This document shows, one piece after another, positions 1,102 to 59,763 of a stretch of 64,000 nt of DNA (its first letter is position 1; every line of letters starts with the position of its first letter). A program made the position numbers and the translations under genes. The notes beneath the pieces were generated by a model. The model searched no databases. It had not been told where the DNA came from and was given only the letters and a program-made list of their open reading frames with translations. The stretch comes from Turbatrix aceti. Lineage: Eukaryota > Nematoda > Chromadorea > Rhabditida > Panagrolaimidae. Location: contig OZ017766.1 of the NCBI GenBank assembly GCA_963969345.1, forward strand, positions 1,054,001 to 1,118,000, read 5' to 3'.

Positions 1102-2380
1102 ATTTTTTTATCGAGTAACTTGGTTTATTGTATTTACGCCCATAAGGGCAACGTTGCTTTCTGTGTTTTTTATTTATCATAAGAATGTAGAACAATGGCA
1201 ATAAATGAAGTGTATTTTAGGCCTAAATTTGGAAAATAGGACTAATACACATTTTTCTCAGAAGATCAATTTATGACCTCATTATTGCAACCTACAGCAC
1301 AAGCGGGTTGCAAGTTGCAACCCCAACCCGCTTGTAAAAAGGCAGTTAAAATCCAGAAAGGATTGCAGATAACAAGAAAATAATTATTGAACACAATGGC
1401 CAATCGAACAAAAGTCATTACGTGACACTATGCGCACGCGATGTGTCTAATCGCGAATACAGCAGTGCTGTCGGGTACCCGACCCGAAGACCTTACCCGG
1501 ACCCGAAAATGTCGGGTACCCGACCCGAAGACCTTACCCGGACCCGAAAATGTCGGGTACCCGACCCGAAAACCCGACCCGGAACCGAAACTTTCGGGTA
1601 CCCGACCCGAAATTCCGGGTATTTCGGGTCGGGTCCAAGTTCGGGTCGGGTTTCGGGTCGGGTACCCGACAGCACTGGAATACAGTAGTCCCATATAAAT
1701 TCCATATGGAACAACTGCAGTTGTAGTGCTTCATTTTGTTTTACTTTTTTTTCGATTTTGCACGTGCATTTCACGTTTTGTGCTGCAAATTCCTGTCTTT
1801 TGCTGGATGCCTTTTGTGTTTATTTTGCTATGGACGCACATTTTTTGCCGCTTCCTGTTGGGGGTGCTCCTTTGCTTAGAATAGCAATTTTTTACCTAAT
1901 TTTTGCAATCTTATTTTTGAAATGGAAATTTTTCTTTTTGCCATTAATTAATTTTTGCTTTTGGGTTTTTCCGGACTTGAACCACTTTTTAGCATGATTT
2001 TTTTTTGTCGTTGCGTAGCAGGTAGGCAGGCATCGGGCACTGATGGACCAGACAAGTTTATCGATAACAGTCTTCTAGGAGTGAAAAATGTGCTGCTTAC
2101 GTCAAATAACCCATTATAGCTGATAAAAATGCAATAAAGAAATTCTTACTAGCTTCACCGGAATTCCTTTTTTTGTGAGTTGAAAGTACACTTTTAAGTG
2201 GGTTGAAAACGATTTTTTTTCACTGTGTATTTATTACGTACCTAACGTAAGATGCATGACGGTAACACGTTCGTTAACAATCGATATATTATTGTATGAG
2301 TATGACAACAACTTATAAATGCGTACGTTATGTACACGACACCAAAAAATAGTCACATGGATTGAGGGAGTTTTGACGAA
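1102..2380. other. Intergenic: APC1 3' UTR, one MITE, no gene seen
   Basis: Contains the APC1 3' UTR with AATAAA at 1200-1205, the short hAT-like element at 1463-1677, and T-rich sequence to the 3' end of the pump gene. Open frames inside 1422-1774 are only the repeat read in several frames, and 1758-1997 is a T-rich chance frame. Confidence 0.6.
1463..1677. mobile_element. Non-autonomous hAT-like MITE (GGGTACCCGA family), copy 1
   Basis: The element begins CAGTGCTGTCGGGTACCCGA and ends with its reverse complement (TCGGGTACCCGACAGCACTG). It is flanked on both sides by the identical octamer GAATACAG (1455-1462 and 1678-1685), an 8-bp target-site duplication as made by hAT transposases. The 215-bp body is nothing but variants of GGGTACCCGACCCGAA and CCCGGACCCGAAA. 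It lacks the unique core found in the copies at 29606 and 44295. The exact duplication implies a fairly recent insertion. Confidence 0.88.
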
Positions 2381-9937: not shown

Positions 9938-9960
9938 AAAAACAAAACAAAGATGTGCAC

Positions 9961-10253
9961 GCTATCCACTACGAAGTGAGTAGCTTCTGCGCGCAAAAGA
10001 GAGGGAGACGCTATCCACTACGAAGTGAGTAGCTTCTGCGCGCAAAAGAAAGGGAGACGCTATCCACTACGAAGTGGGTAGCTTCTGCGCGCAAAAGAGA
10101 GGGAGACGCTATCCACTACGAAGTGGGTAGCTTCTGCGCGCAAAAGAGAGGGAGACGCTATCCACTACGAAGTGGGTAGCTTCTGCGCGCAAAAGAGAGG
10201 GAGACGCTATCCACTACGAAGTGGGTAGCTTCTGCGCGCATAAAAGAGAGAAA
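9961..10253. repeat. 49-bp tandem array, left arm (6 copies)
   Basis: Six units, starts at 9961, 10010, 10059, 10108, 10157 and 10206, each beginning GCTATCCACTACGAAGTG and ending in an AAAAGAGAGGGAGAC-like segment. Units differ at one or two positions (GTGAG/GTGGG). Confidence 0.92.
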
Positions 10254-10960
10254 AGAGAAAGCGCGCAGATGGGTGGTTCTTCGTTGATAGATTCTGATGG
10301 ATTCTGGTCGTCGCTGTGCCGCGATGAATTTTCCGGTGGCATTTCATAGACACTGCAAAAGCATCTTCGTAAAACCACAATTCAGAAATGGTGCGCTCAA
10401 AACAATTCTTACCGTGAGTGATAACGGGTCACCTGTGCAAGCATCGGCTGGTATCACTGCTGGCACTGGCCGTGGAAATCATTGAGGCGATGAGAACAGA
10501 GAAAATGGCAACGGAAATCGATGCAAAAACGTTGACAATCGATTGAGGAACGATCGCGTTCCGTTTTTTGAACGTCAGAACAACACGTTCAAACAGCGCG
10601 TGCGCACATTTTCTTTAACAGATCGCGAACGTTCCTCACTTTGCTAATTGTGAACAATGGATTGTCAACGTTTTTGCATCGATTTCCGTTGCCGTTTCTC
10701 TGTTCTCATCGCCTCAATGATTTTCACGGCCAGTGCCAGCAGTGATACCAGCCGATGCTTGCACAGGTGACCCGTTATCACTCACGGTAAGAATTGTGTT
10801 GAGCGCACCATTTCTGAATTGTGGTTTTACGAAGATGCTTTTGCAGTGTCTATGAAATGCCACCGGAAAATTCATCGCGGCACAGCGACGACCAGAATCC
10901 ATCAGAATCTATCAACGAAGAACCACCCATCTGCGCGCTTTCTCTTTTCTCTCTTTTATG

Positions 10961-11206
10961 CGCGCAGAAGCTACCCACTTCGTAGTGGATAGCGTCTCCC
11001 TTTCTTTTGCGCGCAGAAGCTACTCACTTCGTAGTGGATAGCGTCTCCCTTTCTTTTGCGCGCAGAAGCTACTCACTTCGTAGTGGATAGCGTCTCCCTC
11101 TCTTTTGCGCGCAGAAGCTACCCACTTCGTAGTGGATAGCGTCTCCCTCTCTTTTGCGCGCAGAAGCTACTCACTTCGTAGTGGATAGCGTCTCCCTCTC
11201 TTTTGG
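10961..11206. repeat. 49-bp tandem array, right arm (5 copies)
   Basis: Reverse-complement counterpart of the left array, with five units containing CTACCCACTTCGTAGTGGAT or its CTACTCACTT variant. One unit fewer than the left arm, so the arrays have changed in length since the duplication. Confidence 0.9.
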
Positions 11207-11617
11207 GTGCACATCTTTGTTTTGTTTTGATTTGTTTGCAATTTGTTGATAATAAATACGAAAATCTTTATTCGCCAACATGTGCAACAAGAAATGACAT
11301 AAATTATGAATAGTGCTTCTGTTCAACTCAAAGTAGAAGTAAACTACTCGATTTTGACAAAAATGCAAAAAAATGGTTCTGAACGTGAATTTCAACTTGG
11401 CGTTTTCAGAGAATCCAATAAATCGTAATTTTAGCTTCTTTTGTTTTAGCTCAGACGCTTTCTACAATAAAAACGCAAAAACATGAAAATGATGATGTCA
11501 CAAATTTGCTTTCAAAAAATGGGGAAAAATAAGCATGACAAAAAAAATTTTTATTGTCCTCGTCTTATATATTTATTTGACAAAAAGAAAACAGCGAAAT
11601 TCATTTCTTGTTGGGTT

Positions 11618-16484: not shown

Positions 16485-16680
16485 TGCAAAATGTTCAAAT
16501 CTTTTCTCGATGGTTTGTTTGATCATGATCGTGTTCAAACCAATGTATTGCATTTTGTTTCTCAGCGCGGACAGACACAGCGATCGCATTCAGTGGCACA
16601 CGAAAAATGTGTCGTTTTCCATGCGCTGTCGTTCACCACACTTTATGGTGCGTTTTAGCTAGCAGTGTTGTCGGGTTCGG

Positions 16681-17010
16681 AAATTTTTCGGGTAACCCGA
16701 CCCGAACCCGAACCCGAACCCGAAAATTTCGGGTAACCCGACCCGAACCCGAACCCGAACCCGAAAATTTCGGGTAACCCGACCCGAACCCGAACCCGAA
16801 CCCGAAATTTTCGGGTTACCCGACCCGAACCTGAACCCGAACCCGAAAATTTCGGGTAACCCGACCCGAACTCGAACTCGAACCCGAAAATTTCGGGTTA
16901 CCCGACCCGAACCAAAACCCGAACCCGAAAATTTCGGGTTACCCGACCCGAAACCCGAAGTTCGGGTAACCCGACCCGAAAACCCGACCCGAACTTCAAC
17001 CCGGCAATTT
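16681..17010. repeat. Left subterminal array of the hAT element
   Basis: About eight units of roughly 41 bp, each GGGTAACCCGACCCGAACCC followed by more CCGAA words and an AAAATTTC link. Such subterminal repeats are where hAT transposases usually bind; binding here is inference. Confidence 0.88.
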
Positions 17011-17075
17011 TATGCAAGCTGTCACAAACCGAAAGTCAAACGAAAAAAAATTTTAAAAGAACATGAATAACGATT

Positions 17076-19492
17076 TTAATCCAAAATTTCTATGTCGGAC
17101 GCAGCGTCGTCATAGCTGTCCGCGGCAATGGCAGTCTTCCTGTCGAGTTGGTCGGCAAGCGTTTGCTCGCGAACCGTTTCCAGATGCACAGTAAGCTCTG
17201 GAGATAAATTGCACCGATGTTTATCGGCGATATTAATATCCAGGGAAGAAAATCCTCTTTCTGGCTCGCTACTAGCTACCATTTGACAAACTCTGCGGCG
17301 AGCTTCGGTTGATAACATCGGCATGACTGTGGAATTTCCGTGCCAGAAATTTAAAACATCGTTGAAGTTGTCGAATCCTGGTTTAGGACATGCCAGCTTT
17401 TTTGGCCCTTTGACGAGGTTTTTGTAAGTATTTACTTCAATCTAAAATGTGAATACATGTAAATAATTTTTTTTTCATTTCCAAACTTACCTCTATGTCA
17501 TTTGGGGTAACAGAATTTTCAAAAGTAGTCCATGCAGAAGCCGCTGGTTGCTGCTCGTCGGCAACAATAGTAGGTGCTGGTTCGTTGTCTGGGGGTGAAC
17601 AAATGGCGTAGACGTCTCTGGTGATGGCATCCCACTCGTCGGTCGTGTAAACGGAGCTAAATCAAAAATTAAATTTTTTTTCAAATTAAAATTTAAACGT
17701 ACCTCATAGCAAACCGCGGATCAAAAAAACTTGCCAACTTTACCGATTGACTAGTTTCGTATTCTTTAAATCTTGAGTGAATCTGCGTTACCGCTTGGGC
17801 AATGTAAGGTTTTTCGCCGTCTGCAGCGGCAATCTTGCACTGGTTGAGCATGATCACTTTGAAGTAGGGAATCAGACTGGATATCGCAGTTTTGCTTTCC
17901 GCCTAAAATTTAATTTTAAAATGCGTTATTATTATTATTATTATGCTAAATCATACCATCTTTGTGATATCTCTGAAGAATCCTAGAAATTTATTCAACT
18001 CAATCAGCTCGGCTTCATCTACTTTTAATGCCTCTCGTATTTTCGGAAATGTAGATGACGATTTTACCCTCGGATCAGATAAAATATTCTTGAGAAGGCA
18101 CCTGTTAGCAATAAAAGAAGAAATGAGACTGTGCACGCTACTCCATCGTGTTTGAGCGGGCTGAAATTCAGTAATAAATATCAACACTATTATTGGAAAC
18201 AAAATTACTATTTTGAGAGCAGTCTTCGATCCGGCCTCTCGCAAAACATTTTGCATCAGTGATGCTTTTTTAAAAGATGCCGCAAGCTCTCGAATTGGCA
18301 GAACTAAGTCAGTTGCGTAGCCCGCCATCATTCCTTGAACTATGAGGTTAGTGTTGTGGGCGAAACAATGCAAGCTTTCGACGTCCAAGATGCTACACGC
18401 CAGGACTCCACTACTTGCGCCATCTCTGGTTACGGCTATTACGTTGATGCCGTACTCGTCGATAATGTCGTTTACCATGCTTGCCAGATATGCTCCCGTA
18501 GCTCTGTTTGAGTCCAAGGACTTCATAGGCAGACGGCGATGATGAAATTTAAAGTCTTTATTGATCCACGAAACCGTGGTGCTGCAACAAATGTTTTGTT
18601 TTTGTTTTGTTGTTTTCACACAAAACGAAAACAACAATGAAACCAACCTGAGCAGCCGCAGCTTCCCACTGGACGTTTCATCAAAGGGGATGCAGCCATG
18701 TACACCTGCGAGATTGATTTTGTGTTGCTGCTTAATACTTTCACTCAGTTTAATGACGCTGGCCTTCACTTCGTGACGAGTAGGGTACTATAACATCAAA
18801 CTAAGATTTTCATAATTTTTTATAATTTGTCTAACCTTAAAAGAGGGGTTCCACGAATTCAAAACATCATGAAATAGAACGTCGCCTAAAGTTGTAAAGC
18901 TTAAACCTTTCGTAGCAGCGAGCTTGGCCACTTTTTCCATAAACTCAGTTCTAGAAAGCACGACAGTAGGCCGTGTGAAAAAGGTTGTTGCGCGTTGTTT
19001 CTCATTTTCCATTTTTGGGTCCTTATCACGATGCCGTTGTATATGTCGGGTTCGGGAGCTTGTACTTTTGTCAGCACTCTTGGAGAGTTTGGCTGTGCAG
19101 CCCTTCCACTGACATTCGTATTTACCTGCCTTTTCTTTGAAGTATTCCAAGGCATCTTTGCTTTTGCTTGATTGGCTTTCTGACAGACTGGGGCTCGGAA
19201 CAACACCATTGTCAGTGGTCAGTGGACTGGATTCCCGGTCGATTTCGAATGGATGGGTTCGCTTACGAGTTGCTTGCCTGGCAGTAGATATTCTTCGGTA
19301 TGGAGACGATAAAAGAGTTCGAGGTGAAGGAGTGGGAGCCAGACTTCGTGAGAACGGCGACGCTGCCCTGCTGGGTGATAAACGGGATTCATCGAGGTCT
19401 GCTCTGACGCGAGTAAAACTCGCCGCCGAGGCATGTTCAAAATCGTCCACATTGTTAATGACATCTTCGTTGAAAAAAATCTCATCATCCAT
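17076..19492 (-). CDS. hAT transposase (BED zinc finger, hAT dimerisation domain)
   Basis: Seven exons: 18836-19492, 18648-18787, 18209-18581, 17957-18160, 17703-17902, 17491-17656, 17076-17441. All phases close, giving 701 residues with no stop or frameshift. An acidic N-terminus and Ser-rich stretch are followed by a BED-type zinc finger around residues 125-155 (YECQWKGCTAKL, then HIQRH). The RNase H-like core shows VTRDGASS, LHCFAHNTNLIV and TRWSS, then LASFFDPRF. The C-terminal dimerisation region has DVLNFWHGN, ARRRV and ASSEPERGFSSLDI with the conserved Glu-Arg-x-Phe-Ser. It cuts and pastes the surrounding element. The start at 19492 is the first ATG of the frame. Confidence 0.93.
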
Positions 19493-19923
19493 TTGTTGCT
19501 ATAAAATAAACAATGTGATAAAAAACAACAATCATATTCAATCGCGCGACAGGCAAAAAATTGCGTCTGGTCACTGAGAAGTGGTCACAAAACAAGAAAA
19601 TAATTGATTTAATATTGTGCAAGCAGCGCGGTCGCCGCCTTGTGCATCGGGCACCAGATGATTTAGGTAGGTGCGTCCCATATATTCTACGACGAAAAAC
19701 GCAAACAAATGTTTCCAGCATGTGCCGACAACACACCTGAGGGGTCAATCGACGCCGCTGTTCGGCAGCGCGAGTTGTTTTGCTTCCCTAACTCATCGGC
19801 AGAGCATTCGCTTTATAGTCGCGGTACACCGCAACGTCATGCGGGCCGCGTTTGTCCATACTATGCGCTGATGGACACCATAGCGCTGATTGACAGCACA
19901 CCCTCTTCCCAACACAGCGGCCA

Positions 19924-20277
19924 AAGTGTTGTCGGGTTCTGAAATTTTCGGGTTACCCGACCCGAACCCGAACCCGAACCCGAAAATTTCGGGTAATCCG
20001 ACCCGAACCCGAACCCGAACCCGAAAATTTCGGGTAACCCGACCCAAACCCGAACTCGAACCCGAAAATTTCGGGTAACCCGACCCGAACCCGAACCCGA
20101 ACCCGAAAATTTCGGGTAACCCGACCCGAACTCGAACTCGAACCCGAAAATTTCGGGTTACCCGACCCGAACCAAAACCCGAACCCGAAAATTTCGGGTT
20201 ACCCGACCCGAAACCCGGGATTTTCGGGTCGGGTTCGGGTCGGGTCGGGTTTCGGGTCGGGTAACCCGACAACACTG
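19924..20277. repeat. Right subterminal array of the hAT element
   Basis: About eight units like those at the left, in the same direct orientation, with the last 60 bp turning into the inverted terminus. Its inner edge (AGTGTTGTCGGGTTCTGAAA at 19925) copies the outer left terminus of the whole element, so this array is bounded by terminus-like sequence on both sides. Confidence 0.85.
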
Positions 20278-20868
20278 TTAGCTAGGCCACATTCATGTAC
20301 CTAAGCAAAGTTTGCAATGAGAGGAGGGCGCGATGCAACCAAACGACTTTGTGACCTTTTTTTACTGGATAACCGATGTGATCCCAGGCGTTTGGTGGAC
20401 ACACTGTTGTGCGCGCAAGTTTTTGTACAAACGACGGCGGTTAGTGGCACGAAATTATGCCCCTGCCGCGAAAACGATTTGCTTAGGACACAGGCGCGTC
20501 TGCTCCTGCGCAAACTTAATGGAACCGCACACCTTATTGTGCTGCGATCGCTCTCACCGTCTGTGCCAAAGAAACAAAATGCAATACCTTGGTTCAAACG
20601 CTATTTTGGAGACGGTAAAGCTGTGTGAAAAGCTTTTTGGACAGCATTAGCCAGCTTTTGTCAGCATGTTATAGAGAAATCGATCTCGTTGATCTTCGAA
20701 GTTTGTGTCTGTTTTGCCTGTTTTTTACACAGACACAAGATCAATCTGATCAGGATTGTTGTTCTAGGGGCTCGTGCTTGCTTGCAGGCCATTGCGAGCA
20801 AGAGTTGAAGCAAAATCGGTCACCTCGAGCAATGCAAGAAAACAAACATTTTTTAAGAACGATTCAGG

Positions 20869-29605: not shown

Positions 29606-30093
29606 CAGTGCTGTCGGGTACCCGACCCGAAACCCGACCCGAACTTGGACCCGACCCGAAATACCCGGAATTTCGGGTCGGGTACCCGAAAGTTTCGGGT
29701 CCGGGTCGGGTTTTCGGGTCGGGTACCCGAAAATTTCGGGTCCGGGTCCGGGTCCGGATCGGGTACCCGAAAATTTCGGGTTCGGGTTGCAAAAAACAAC
29801 AAAAATCCAATGAAAGAGAAGCTCCTCACGCAAGACAAGCTCTTTAGTGCGTCTGGACATTGAGTGGCTCAACTAGATTTGACATACATCGGCCAAGGCA
29901 TATGTTCCGGAAGCAAAAATTTCGGGTTTTCGGGTCGGGTACCCGAAAGTTTCGGATCCGGATCCGGGTCCGGGTCGGGTACCCGAAAGTTTCGGATCCG
30001 GATCGGGTTTTCGGGTCGGGTACCCGAAATTTTCGGGTCCGGGTAAGGTCTTCGGGTCGGGTACCCGACATTTTCGGGTACCCGACAGCACTG
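29606..30093. mobile_element. Non-autonomous hAT-like MITE (GGGTACCCGA family), copy 2
   Basis: 488 bp, CAGTGCTGTCGGGTACCCGA at both ends, exact 8-bp duplication CTCATGAG at 29598-29605 and 30094-30101. Two arrays of GGGTCGGGTACCCGAAA-type words flank a unique core of about 130 bp (29788-29920). The same core occurs in the opposite orientation in the copy at 44295. Confidence 0.92.
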
Positions 30094-44294: not shown

Positions 44295-44611
44295 CAATGC
44301 TGTCGGGTACCCGACCCGAAGACCTTACCCGGACCCGAAAATTTCGGGTACCCGATTCGAAATTTTTGCTTCCGGAACATATGCCTTGGCCGATGTACGC
44401 CAAATCTAGTTGAGCCACTCAATGTCCAGACGCACCAAAGAGCTTGTCTTGCGTGAGGAGTTTCTCTTTCATTGGATTTTTGTTGTTTTTTGACACCCGA
44501 ACCCGAAATTTTCGGGTACCCGACCCAGACCCGAAACTTTCGGGTACCCGGCCCGAAATTCCGGGTATTTCGGGTCGGGTCCGAGTTGGGGTCGGGTACC
44601 CGACAGCACTG
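44295..44611. mobile_element. Non-autonomous hAT-like MITE (GGGTACCCGA family), copy 3
   Basis: 317 bp; ends CAATGCTGTCGGGTACCCGA and, inward from the right, CAGTGCTGTCGGGTACCCGA. Exact 8-bp duplication ATCGTAAA at 44287-44294 and 44612-44619. The core (about 44366-44500) is the reverse complement of the core in copy 2 with only a few differences. Confidence 0.92.
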
Positions 44612-56980: not shown

Positions 56981-58721
56981 ACCCACCAAGCCGCAATCCA
57001 GGCGAGTCAACGTTGTCTGTTTTCTGTATAGGGGTGGTGCCGTGATGATAACGCGGATGGATCCGTGGAAGCAAGCCGTCGTCTCGGCAGGCAGAAGGCT
57101 GAATCCATCCTTCTGACGGGTAACTGAATTATTCTTTTGTGTATTTTTTTCTGTCTTTGTTTGATATTAACGAACAATTTCGAGTCGTCCTCAATTTTTC
57201 TTTAATCCAACTTTGTTTTTTCTTCTTTTGCATTCTGTGTAACCGATTTTTAAAGAATCTATCCAACTGGGCAATCAATCATCCGAGTTTTATTTTATTT
57301 ATTTTTTGCACATGTCTTCCTACTCAAATTTCGATAAACACGGGGTCTTTTTTGTTTCTCCACCATGCGACAGGCACCAGACGCGCATCGCTCGCGGTCG
57401 TCTTCGCGTTGCTGTTTCAAACAACGATTTCTCATCCGGGGTATGCTTGCTACACATGTTCACGATACCATCGATACAAAAAAAACAAATTTTTGGTTTT
57501 GGCGTCCTTTTTTTACCTTTTGTATTTTTTCGTGTCAAAGTCAGTCATTCAATTTTTAGGGTATCCTGTGATAAACCCAGTAAATTCACTTGTAAAAATA
57601 TTTTTCATAACTTTTATTTTTTTATGTTGAAATGTGTCGGGGTATTTAATAAACGTGGACTTTTCTCTCAACCATGAGAAAGTTTTGAACAAAAGCGTTG
57701 GATTTGTGGTCGCATTGGACGTTCGAACAATTGGCTCCGCGAGAGTACATCAGGTGAAGAGAATCTTGCTGCATACAGCATCCTTCGGGGTGTTTAAGGA
57801 AGCGTTGTGGCAGTACCGTAAACTCGGCGTTTAAATGTATTGCTTAATTTGTCGTTGAACGTACAAATTACTTATGATTACTCTTTGTTTCGACCAACGA
57901 ACATTGCTTCATTTTTTATAACAATCCTGTGTCGGCGTTCAAAAATCTTTATTTTTCGACTCCAGTTCGTTTCGGACAAGCAAAAAATTATGCAACCAAC
58001 TGAATGACACCTTGGAGATAACGAATACGGTAGTTTCGTCAGGCTAGCTACCTTTCTTTCTAAAAATTCATGTCACTCTTATTGAATTGAGTGTTTGAAG
58101 CAGAATAAAAATTACATTAGTTGTCAACGGCACCCGGAAATAACTGTGAAATGAAGAACACTCAAACAATTGGACTATCAACCATGATAAAAATTTAGGT
58201 TCCCGAACTTTGCGTGAAAACACCGGCAAATTTTTATCTGCAAGCATGTTGTTTTCGCAAAAGAATTAAAAATACACTTCAGGTATCTTGAGACATGCCC
58301 CGGTTCCTACTAGGCAATTATTTTTTGTAATACCCTTCTACCCAACTCCTTTTCCAACATCAGATACATGTTTTCAGCCACCAAGAGTCGTGAACACAAA
58401 ATGGAGTGTAATTCTCGTAAGCTACGTGTGGCCTTAACCGAGGGATAACGATATTTAGAGTTGTGTCACGTATAAATCAGAAATGCCAGCCACTGCTGTT
58501 TTCAATATAGTTTTTTCCTATCATTGTTAAGTGCGCTTTTGACACCCGTGTATGCGCAATTTTGTATTTAAATCTATGAAATATTTTAAAACACAATTTT
58601 TGTTTTTTTTAAACTAAGTTGGTCGTAATTTTAAAGTGAACCGAAAACCGTAAAAAATTGTCCTTTTCCTGTCCCTTTTCCCCCAAAAACTATGACTACC
58701 GTAAAACACATTTTTAGCCGC
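56981..58721. other. 1.7 kb intergenic region
   Basis: Transportin 3' UTR with a possible hairpin (57055-57110). A frame at 57370-57500 reads like a signal peptide followed by YACYTCSRYH, as in Ly6-type proteins, but has no usable start or continuation. No gene is called. Confidence 0.45.
57055..57110. repeat. Imperfect hairpin in transportin 3' region
   Basis: GGATGGAT (57055-57062) pairs with ATCCATCC (57103-57110); inside, GCCG and CGGC can pair. Structure is modest and may be chance. Confidence 0.4.
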
Positions 58722-59763
58722 ATGTCATCGTTCCTGTTCAACTTTGGCAACTTCCAGCTTCTGTCGACCCTAACCATTGCTATAATCACGGTTGCACTGT
58801 ATTGCTTCATCGTCTGGATCATCGTCTCCACAGGCCACCAGTACCGGCTCAACAGCTTTTATTTCTACGCATTCTGCCACCAAGCCGCTTCCAATACACT
58901 TGGCCTTCTGTCGACCATCATGACGGGTCAGTGCTTCCAGGCCTCCCTCATGGGGCCCGTCATAGCGCTGATGCCGACAATGCATCCTCTGTTCAGTCTG
59001 TTGGTTTTTATAACGCATACGTCGTTCGACTTCAGCCTTCTGGCTGGCCTGTCGATGACTATCAACCGGTGCATGACCATTGTCTTCGTCACCATGGACA
59101 AGCAAAAGTGGGAGACAGTGAAGCCTTTTTTCAGCGGCGCTCTCCCCCTCGTGTCCATGATTTTCACGGCCAACGTCTGGTTCATGAACTACGCTATACT
59201 CCCAAACGCCGGAACTGGTAGTGGATTTTTCTGGACAAATCAGAAAGTCAGTTTCATCGGAGATCAGAGTAAAGTTCAGTTTTGTCTGTTGTTTTTTGTC
59301 TGGTGGACCGAGCTCCTGCTCAACATCGTATCCATCATTTTCCTGGTCAAACGACGGAAGCCTGTGCTCCATCGAAATTCTCGAAAGACACTTTCCAAGG
59401 AGGACAGAAGGTTGTTCTTCTGCACGCTGCTTATATTCGTATCCAAGAGCTTCTACATGGCTGGCCAGTTCATGTTCGTGGTTGGCATCACCAGCAATCT
59501 ACAAAGACAGGTGGCCTTTGCACTCGGGATTGACGGCGCCGTAGTAGAGATGTCGTCTCCCGCGTGGATTCTCTTCTCAGGCAGCAGCGGGCTGCGAAAA
59601 GCGATGGTAGGTCCATTTTTCTGTCCTGGATGTTAAAATGTGTCTAAAAACAAAAGCCACTTTTTTATAGAAAAAATCCATAGCATCTACAGGATCAGTA
59701 GTGCACACGGTGACGACATCTCATAACTTGTCTGGTTTAAGAGTCGCAAGCCACCACTCGTAA
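58722..59763 (+). CDS. Nematode-type serpentine 7TM receptor (Srg superfamily-like)
   Basis: Exons 58722-59606 and 59671-59763 give 325 residues. I placed the start at 58722 because the acceptor ACATTTTTAG ends 4 bases before it; an ATG at 58692 would add 10 residues but lies before that acceptor. Seven hydrophobic stretches are visible, for example LLSTLTIAIITVALYCFIVW, HPLFSLLVFITHTSFDFSLL and FCLLFFVWWTELLLNIVSII. AGLSMTINRCMTIVF at the third-segment end and PAWILFSGSSGLRKAM at the last fit srx/srv/srg chemoreceptors. The tail is Ser/Thr/His-rich. Precise class unclear. Confidence 0.78.

Follow-up and report, generated by a model that had tools for sequence, protein, structure and literature searches.

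Direct 41-bp tandem arrays at both ends of a recently mobile hAT transposon in the nematode Turbatrix aceti

A 64,000-nucleotide stretch of the Turbatrix aceti genome (assembly GCA_963969345.1, contig OZ017766.1, positions 1,054,001 to 1,118,000; hereafter the window) carries a recently mobile hAT transposon with an unbroken transposase gene and regular 41-bp tandem arrays at both ends. Diverged relatives in the same genome carry arrays of other units at nearly the same period. The arrays may be amplified binding sites of the transposase. The parts of the element, in window positions, were as follows.

16655..16662: target site duplication TTAGCTAG, left copy, exact octamer match
16663..20277, minus strand (strand of its gene): hAT transposon, 3,615 bp, identified by termini, duplication, arrays and further copies
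16663..16677, plus strand: left terminal inverted repeat, the 15-mer CAGTGTTGTCGGGTT
16686..16959, plus strand: left 41-bp array, 6.7 copies, Tandem Repeats Finder score 476, with a shoulder to about 17003
19924..19938, plus strand: left-terminus copy inside the element, altered at its first base, at the start of the right array
19941..20217, plus strand: right 41-bp array, 6.7 copies, Tandem Repeats Finder score 468, oriented as the left array
20218..20262: GC-rich tail separating the right array from the right terminus
20263..20277, minus strand: right terminal inverted repeat, the same 15-mer as on the left (CAGTGTTGTCGGGTT)
20278..20285: target site duplication TTAGCTAG, right copy, exact octamer match

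Two hAT features were seen at the borders: short terminal inverted repeats starting CAG (CAGTGTTGTCGGGTT, both ends) and an 8-bp target duplication. The genome assembly (59.9 Mb, 28 contigs) was searched with the element, and at least 219 DNA matches were found. Of the 38 loci fetched from these matches, 26 had both termini and a perfect 8-bp duplication, and 12 did not. Perfect duplications were thus present in 27 copies, the window copy included. Target duplications of hAT elements are biased to nTnnnnAn; here, T occupied position 2 in 17 of the 27 copies and A occupied position 7 in 21.

A second near-full copy was located on contig C4 (3,531 bp, duplication GCCATGAA). It differed from the window copy by four substitutions, a 2-bp deletion in exon 4 and 82 bp, corresponding to two array units, at the right end. 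Because the deletion shifts the frame, only the window copy of the two keeps an unbroken one. Ten further loci (L012 to L021) shared one internal-deletion junction, at element positions 436/2991, and their bodies were 99.6-100% identical to the window element. The eight of them with both ends measured 855 to 1,101 bp, and their arrays differed by whole units or by one hexamer. Further short elements with perfect duplications were 200, 232, 232, 273 and 394 bp long, and the unit types in them are ones found mainly in the 680-bp class.

The element was inserted in another repeat with inverted ends, and a copy of this repeat on contig C6 (L090) provided an empty site. It was identical to the joined flanks at 394 of 437 positions and continued across the junction with only one octamer, CAAGCTAG replacing TTAGCTAG; the site is paralogous, not orthologous. 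The near-identical second copy, the deletion derivatives with perfect duplications and the single-octamer empty site support recent mobility. The original prediction of an intact, recently inserted hAT element at 16663-20277, flanked by a perfect TTAGCTAG duplication, was therefore borne out, with coordinates and octamer exact.

The two arrays together spanned 551 bp by Tandem Repeats Finder. Adding the GC-rich shoulders (about 16663-17003 and 19924-20277) gives ends of roughly 700 bp in total, in line with the CCCGAA-rich 41-bp arrays first proposed for about 700 of the 3,615 bp. Each unit is made up of the palindrome TCGGGTWACCCGA, followed by CCCGAA hexamers and an AAAATTT step. The inward reading of the right terminus is CAGTGTTGTCGGGTTACCCGA, and the palindrome is thus common to terminus and array unit, the array core repeating the inner portion of that inverted repeat. 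In genome-wide scans, the terminus pattern CAGTGYTGTCGGGTW occurred 296 times (0 for the reversed control) and array-core pairs occurred 329 times per strand (0 in the control), which excludes chance.

Left and right arrays lie in direct, not inverted, orientation. They do not form the long inverted repeats of inverted tandem arrays seen in Foldback-type elements: the orientation is the same at both ends and the C-B order is shared. The left array has the unit order A-A-D-F-C-B and the right array E-N-O-A-C-B, and the common C-B end suggests copying between the ends. One solo array of 232 bp (L028, duplication GTGTCAGT) had the order terminus-A-C-B-right tail. It looks like the product of a recombination between left and right arrays that removed the gene. 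The direct orientation, the internal terminus copy and the solo array had not been part of the original description.

The rebuilt gene model agreed with the seven-exon, 701-residue transposase first proposed. It lies on the minus strand, has GT..AG introns and encodes 701 residues plus stop in an unbroken frame, with the following exons.

18836..19492, minus strand: transposase exon 1, start codon at 19492, rebuilt gene model
18648..18787, minus strand: transposase exon 2, rebuilt gene model
18209..18581, minus strand: transposase exon 3, rebuilt gene model
17957..18160, minus strand: transposase exon 4, rebuilt gene model
17703..17902, minus strand: transposase exon 5, rebuilt gene model
17491..17656, minus strand: transposase exon 6, rebuilt gene model
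17076..17441, minus strand: transposase exon 7, carrying the stop codon and the hAT dimerisation region, gene model and Pfam

Of the three protein domains originally named, the hAT C-terminal dimerisation region was recovered above the Pfam cut-off (PF05699, E 3.2e-7). The RNase H-like core was not, its match being sub-cut-off (14.4 vs 27 bits), and neither was the BED finger. A four-protein alignment was made of the window transposase, its same-genome relative L072 and two database proteins. D255, D319 and E641, which we take to be the catalytic residues, were invariant, as were a CxxH motif and an RW pair. The database relatives numbered two, at 23-24% identity, among 7,996 candidates scored; no sequence relative was found in PDB (best E 0.79).

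A transposase search of the genome listed 17 matches, some of them belonging to the array-bearing families. The element L072 (C1:6202553-6205443, 2,891 bp, duplication CATGGCAG) encodes a transposase identical to that of the window at 249 of 612 aligned residues (about 41%), with a spliced alignment free of stops. Its arrays, present at both ends in a single orientation, have a period of 41 and a different unit (CGGGTACCCGAAAATCAGAATTTCGG followed by GGTTCC hexamers). Its partner L073 was 99.7% identical over 2.7 kb, the sequence ending inside the right array. More distant were L074 (C5:2247199-2250111) and L075 (C4:104145-107059), which were 99.93% identical to each other. Their terminus is CAGAGTTGTCGACCGAGCC, and their duplications are TCCAACAT and the 9-bp CTTGGGAAC, the latter judged by eye. 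The transposase matched that of the window at 181 of 628 residues (about 29%); in the spliced alignment, the forced N-terminal part holds two stops, which lie outside the likely gene. Again the arrays had a single orientation at both ends, here with a period of 42 and a CGAGC-based unit. CGAGC units with the 42-bp period were also seen at 23 places outside L074/L075 (e.g. C1:4038005 and 4038326), frequently in two pairs separated by some 320 bp. These dispersed elements are probably short derivatives of the L074/L075 family.

A further family, defined by the terminus CAGTGCTG, has array periods of 40-41 and three members in the window.

1463..1677: related array element of the CAGTGCTG family, 215 bp long, with duplication GAATACAG and 41-bp units
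29606..30093: related array element of the CAGTGCTG family, 488 bp long, with duplication CTCATGAG and, at both ends, 40-41-bp units
44295..44611: related array element of the CAGTGCTG family, 317 bp long, with duplication ATCGTAAA

From family to family, the type of core went with the type of terminus. Pooling 85 fetched loci (L009 to L046 and L072 to L118) with the window gave 47 elements with at most one duplication mismatch (42 perfect, 5 with one), identical sequences being counted once. The 36 elements with GTTGTCGGGTT termini held 285 odd and 3 even cores, and all three even cores sit in L093, an L072-like element filed in this group by one terminus. The six CAGTGCTG elements had 0 odd and 40 even cores, and the five CAGTGTTGTCGGGTA elements had 1 odd and 17 even. 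In genome-wide scans, odd-core pairs were 41 bp apart in 43 of 50 cases and even-core pairs 40-41 bp apart in 35 of 50, both among the matches listed (hand tallies of plus-strand rows that include already fetched elements). CGAGC pairs were 42 bp apart in 33 of 38 cases, all rows of the scan being counted. The reversed controls of the odd-core, even-core and CGAGC scans gave 0 in each.

These patterns point to a mechanism in which each unit would carry a palindromic copy (TCGGGTWACCCGA) of the inner terminus that is bound by the transposase, via a BED-like finger and probably as a dimer. Next to each cleavage site, an array would thereby offer a platform of high avidity. With a palindromic site, it need make no difference to binding that both arrays point the same way. 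For insertion, a unit or two at each end seem to be enough, and extra units may be gained and lost through slippage or through unequal exchange. The transposase would favour a spacing of about 41-42 bp, close to four turns at the helical turn length of DNA, and this spacing would be retained for that reason. Direct arrays could also recombine with each other, so that the gene is lost and a short solo array with both termini is left. Judged from sequence comparison, the reading of the arrays as amplified transposase sites has, as a whole, an even chance of being correct. It draws on the palindrome shared by terminus and unit, on core type following terminus type, and on the period kept in diverged families. 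The many transposase sites per end first proposed are consistent with these three points. The pair spacings of the genome-wide scans and the unit order of the solo array L028 also speak for the reading, and Hermes, Herves and Galileo lend it support by analogy. The finger is suggested by a C-x4-C...H-x4-H pattern aligned in the window and L072 transposases, together with a zf-BED hit below threshold in the protein of the more distant L074 (E 0.0036, 17.7 vs 20.6 bits). An N-terminal BED zinc finger is common, not universal, among hAT transposases.

A wider claim is put forward tentatively. The elements may form a hAT clade with two-ended, direct-orientation arrays of palindromic sites and a period of 41-42 bp. 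On this view, the cores of terminus and array would change in step with the transposase at an unaltered spacing, which would make spacing the constrained feature. The direct arrays would be a one-step route to short mobile solo arrays, much like solo long terminal repeats.

Several observations weigh against amplified sites kept at a constrained spacing. Pfam gave no zf-BED match in the window transposase at E<=1. Core conservation was modest when units were cut without reference to the core (21/684 changes in the core vs 83/836 elsewhere), which ranked third lowest among 40 circular shifts. For the 11-bp palindrome by itself, changes numbered 19/380, vs 85/1140 elsewhere in the unit. A core-anchored count had looked strong, but the core-independent one was only modest, and the argument from strong core conservation was dropped. 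Spacings of 35, 34 and 28-29 bp were also present, and these steps weaken strict helical phasing. Since the families share ancestry, their common period may simply be inherited. Array copy number drifts by whole units among copies.

Array-poor copies belong on the same side. The 479-bp element L036 has a perfect duplication, one left core and no right array. L085 combines two units per end with an intact duplication and a 144-bp middle without divergence. One to three units per end were found in L085, L084, L108 and others; the further array-poor copies were L084, L086, L105, L104 and L108, of which L104 and L108 have one duplication mismatch. The CAGTGTTGTCGGGTA group contains elements of only 74 and 101 bp with perfect duplications. 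Long arrays thus seem unneeded for insertion, unless they shrank later. Copies without terminal arrays had been named at the outset as what would speak against the original prediction, and this holds in part: L036 lacks the right array, and the others keep one to three units per end. The middle of L086 (element 403-968) holds unrelated GC-rich sequence, possibly a captured fragment, followed by an internal terminus copy. In the 680-bp class, array length correlated with age (Spearman -0.63, p 0.007, n=17), but the result was left unused, since it includes the doubtful L101, a 29%-diverged match with zero units. In the table for this class, 5 short matches were dropped from 28 middle-matching loci, and 6 more were left out because no end could be recognised.

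Neutral array growth with an inherited period is the main rival. GC-rich, partly palindromic ends would slip during replication or post-excision gap repair, grow and shrink, and be homogenised by unequal exchange, the period deriving from an ancestral array. We consider this possible, though short of probable. It accommodates near-identical bodies whose arrays differ by whole units or one hexamer, array-poor copies inserted with perfect duplications, and the C-B unit order in both arrays, a sign of end-to-end copying. Plain slippage, however, does not predict that unit sequence changes between families while the period stays, nor that unit and terminus cores change together, though gene conversion involving terminus and array could produce this.

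A role in DNA structure (as hairpins, cruciforms or G-quadruplexes), in host chromatin or as a promoter element, in place of one as transposase sites, is improbable for the arrays. All four families tested have palindromes of at least 11 bp in their arrays, G-quadruplex motifs occur in the arrays of the window element, and the right array is positioned upstream of the transposase gene start. Against this, the arrays of L072 and L074 have no G-quadruplex motifs, so that G-quadruplexes were discarded as a conserved feature, and arrays are kept in copies that lost the gene. An unrelated satellite at or near the insertion, or an assembly artefact, is hardly credible in spite of other CCCGA-rich arrays in the window: three of those are themselves duplication-flanked elements, and, decisively, termini and perfect 8-bp duplications lie outside the arrays in the window copy and in 26 of the 38 loci fetched.

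Elements of the hAT superfamily with terminal tandem repeats are already known, Herves and an Atlantic cod element among them. In Hermes, BED domains bind several subterminal repeats (PMC10368747). Hermes, like Ac, Tol2 and Tag1, shares with the window element a hAT transposase with dimerisation region, an 8-bp duplication, short termini and several sites near each end, but the repeats described there are short motifs and not regular 41-bp tandem arrays of about 6.7 copies per end. The transposase of Herves, a hAT element of Anopheles gambiae, binds a motif that recurs at both ends (PMC3143072); in the passages available, the unit is longer and described for one end, and a series varying by whole units is not described. 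The Atlantic cod hAT miniature inverted-repeat transposable element (MITE) gadMor-hAT-1784 has long ends built of tandem repeats (PMC12368964), but with a unit of 167-169 bp, inverted ends and a consensus without transposase. Tandem repeats in the ends are also found in the Foldback-like elements Galileo, where they hold further transposase-binding sites by electrophoretic mobility shift assay (PMC3688188), and Tetris, where they vary in copy number and seed a satellite (PMC4079207). Galileo is a member of the P superfamily, and for Tetris no transposase is known; their arrays lie in long inverted repeats, whereas those of the window element are direct. A coral MITE paper was rejected as a precedent, since it concerns piggyBac-like elements (PMC2872659). 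Among the papers listed by searches of an open-access library (subscription journals and Repbase lying outside), we found no hAT element with direct-orientation terminal arrays at both ends, and in particular no intact one with a period shared by diverged relatives with other units.

Other features were recorded around the insertion. The host repeat covers 16537-16662 and 20286-20592, and its relatives are arranged in tandem every 1,695 bp on contig C2 (about 305670-321333) and also on C3, a small contig. A Foldback-like inverted structure at 9946-11211 has 517-nt arms (9988-10504 and 10695-11211) that are 98% complementary; the outer arm parts are inverted 49-bp tandem arrays, unlike the hAT arrays. 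The open frame at 58635-59633 matched the Srg chemoreceptor family (E 1.7e-7), which is nematode-specific, in keeping with a nematode host. The window's contig presumably starts with a 28S ribosomal RNA gene and not with telomere repeats (L112, C1:1-800, recognised by eye).

Beyond a few model elements, little is known of the number and spacing of subterminal sites that hAT elements require. The T. aceti elements offer a natural series, from none to about eight units per end, with three diverged transposases, three unit sequences and nearly one spacing. Such a series lets site number, spacing and sequence be tested separately. The direct arrays suggest a concrete path by which short non-autonomous elements could arise from an autonomous one, and also a way for families to switch their recognition sequence while staying mobile.
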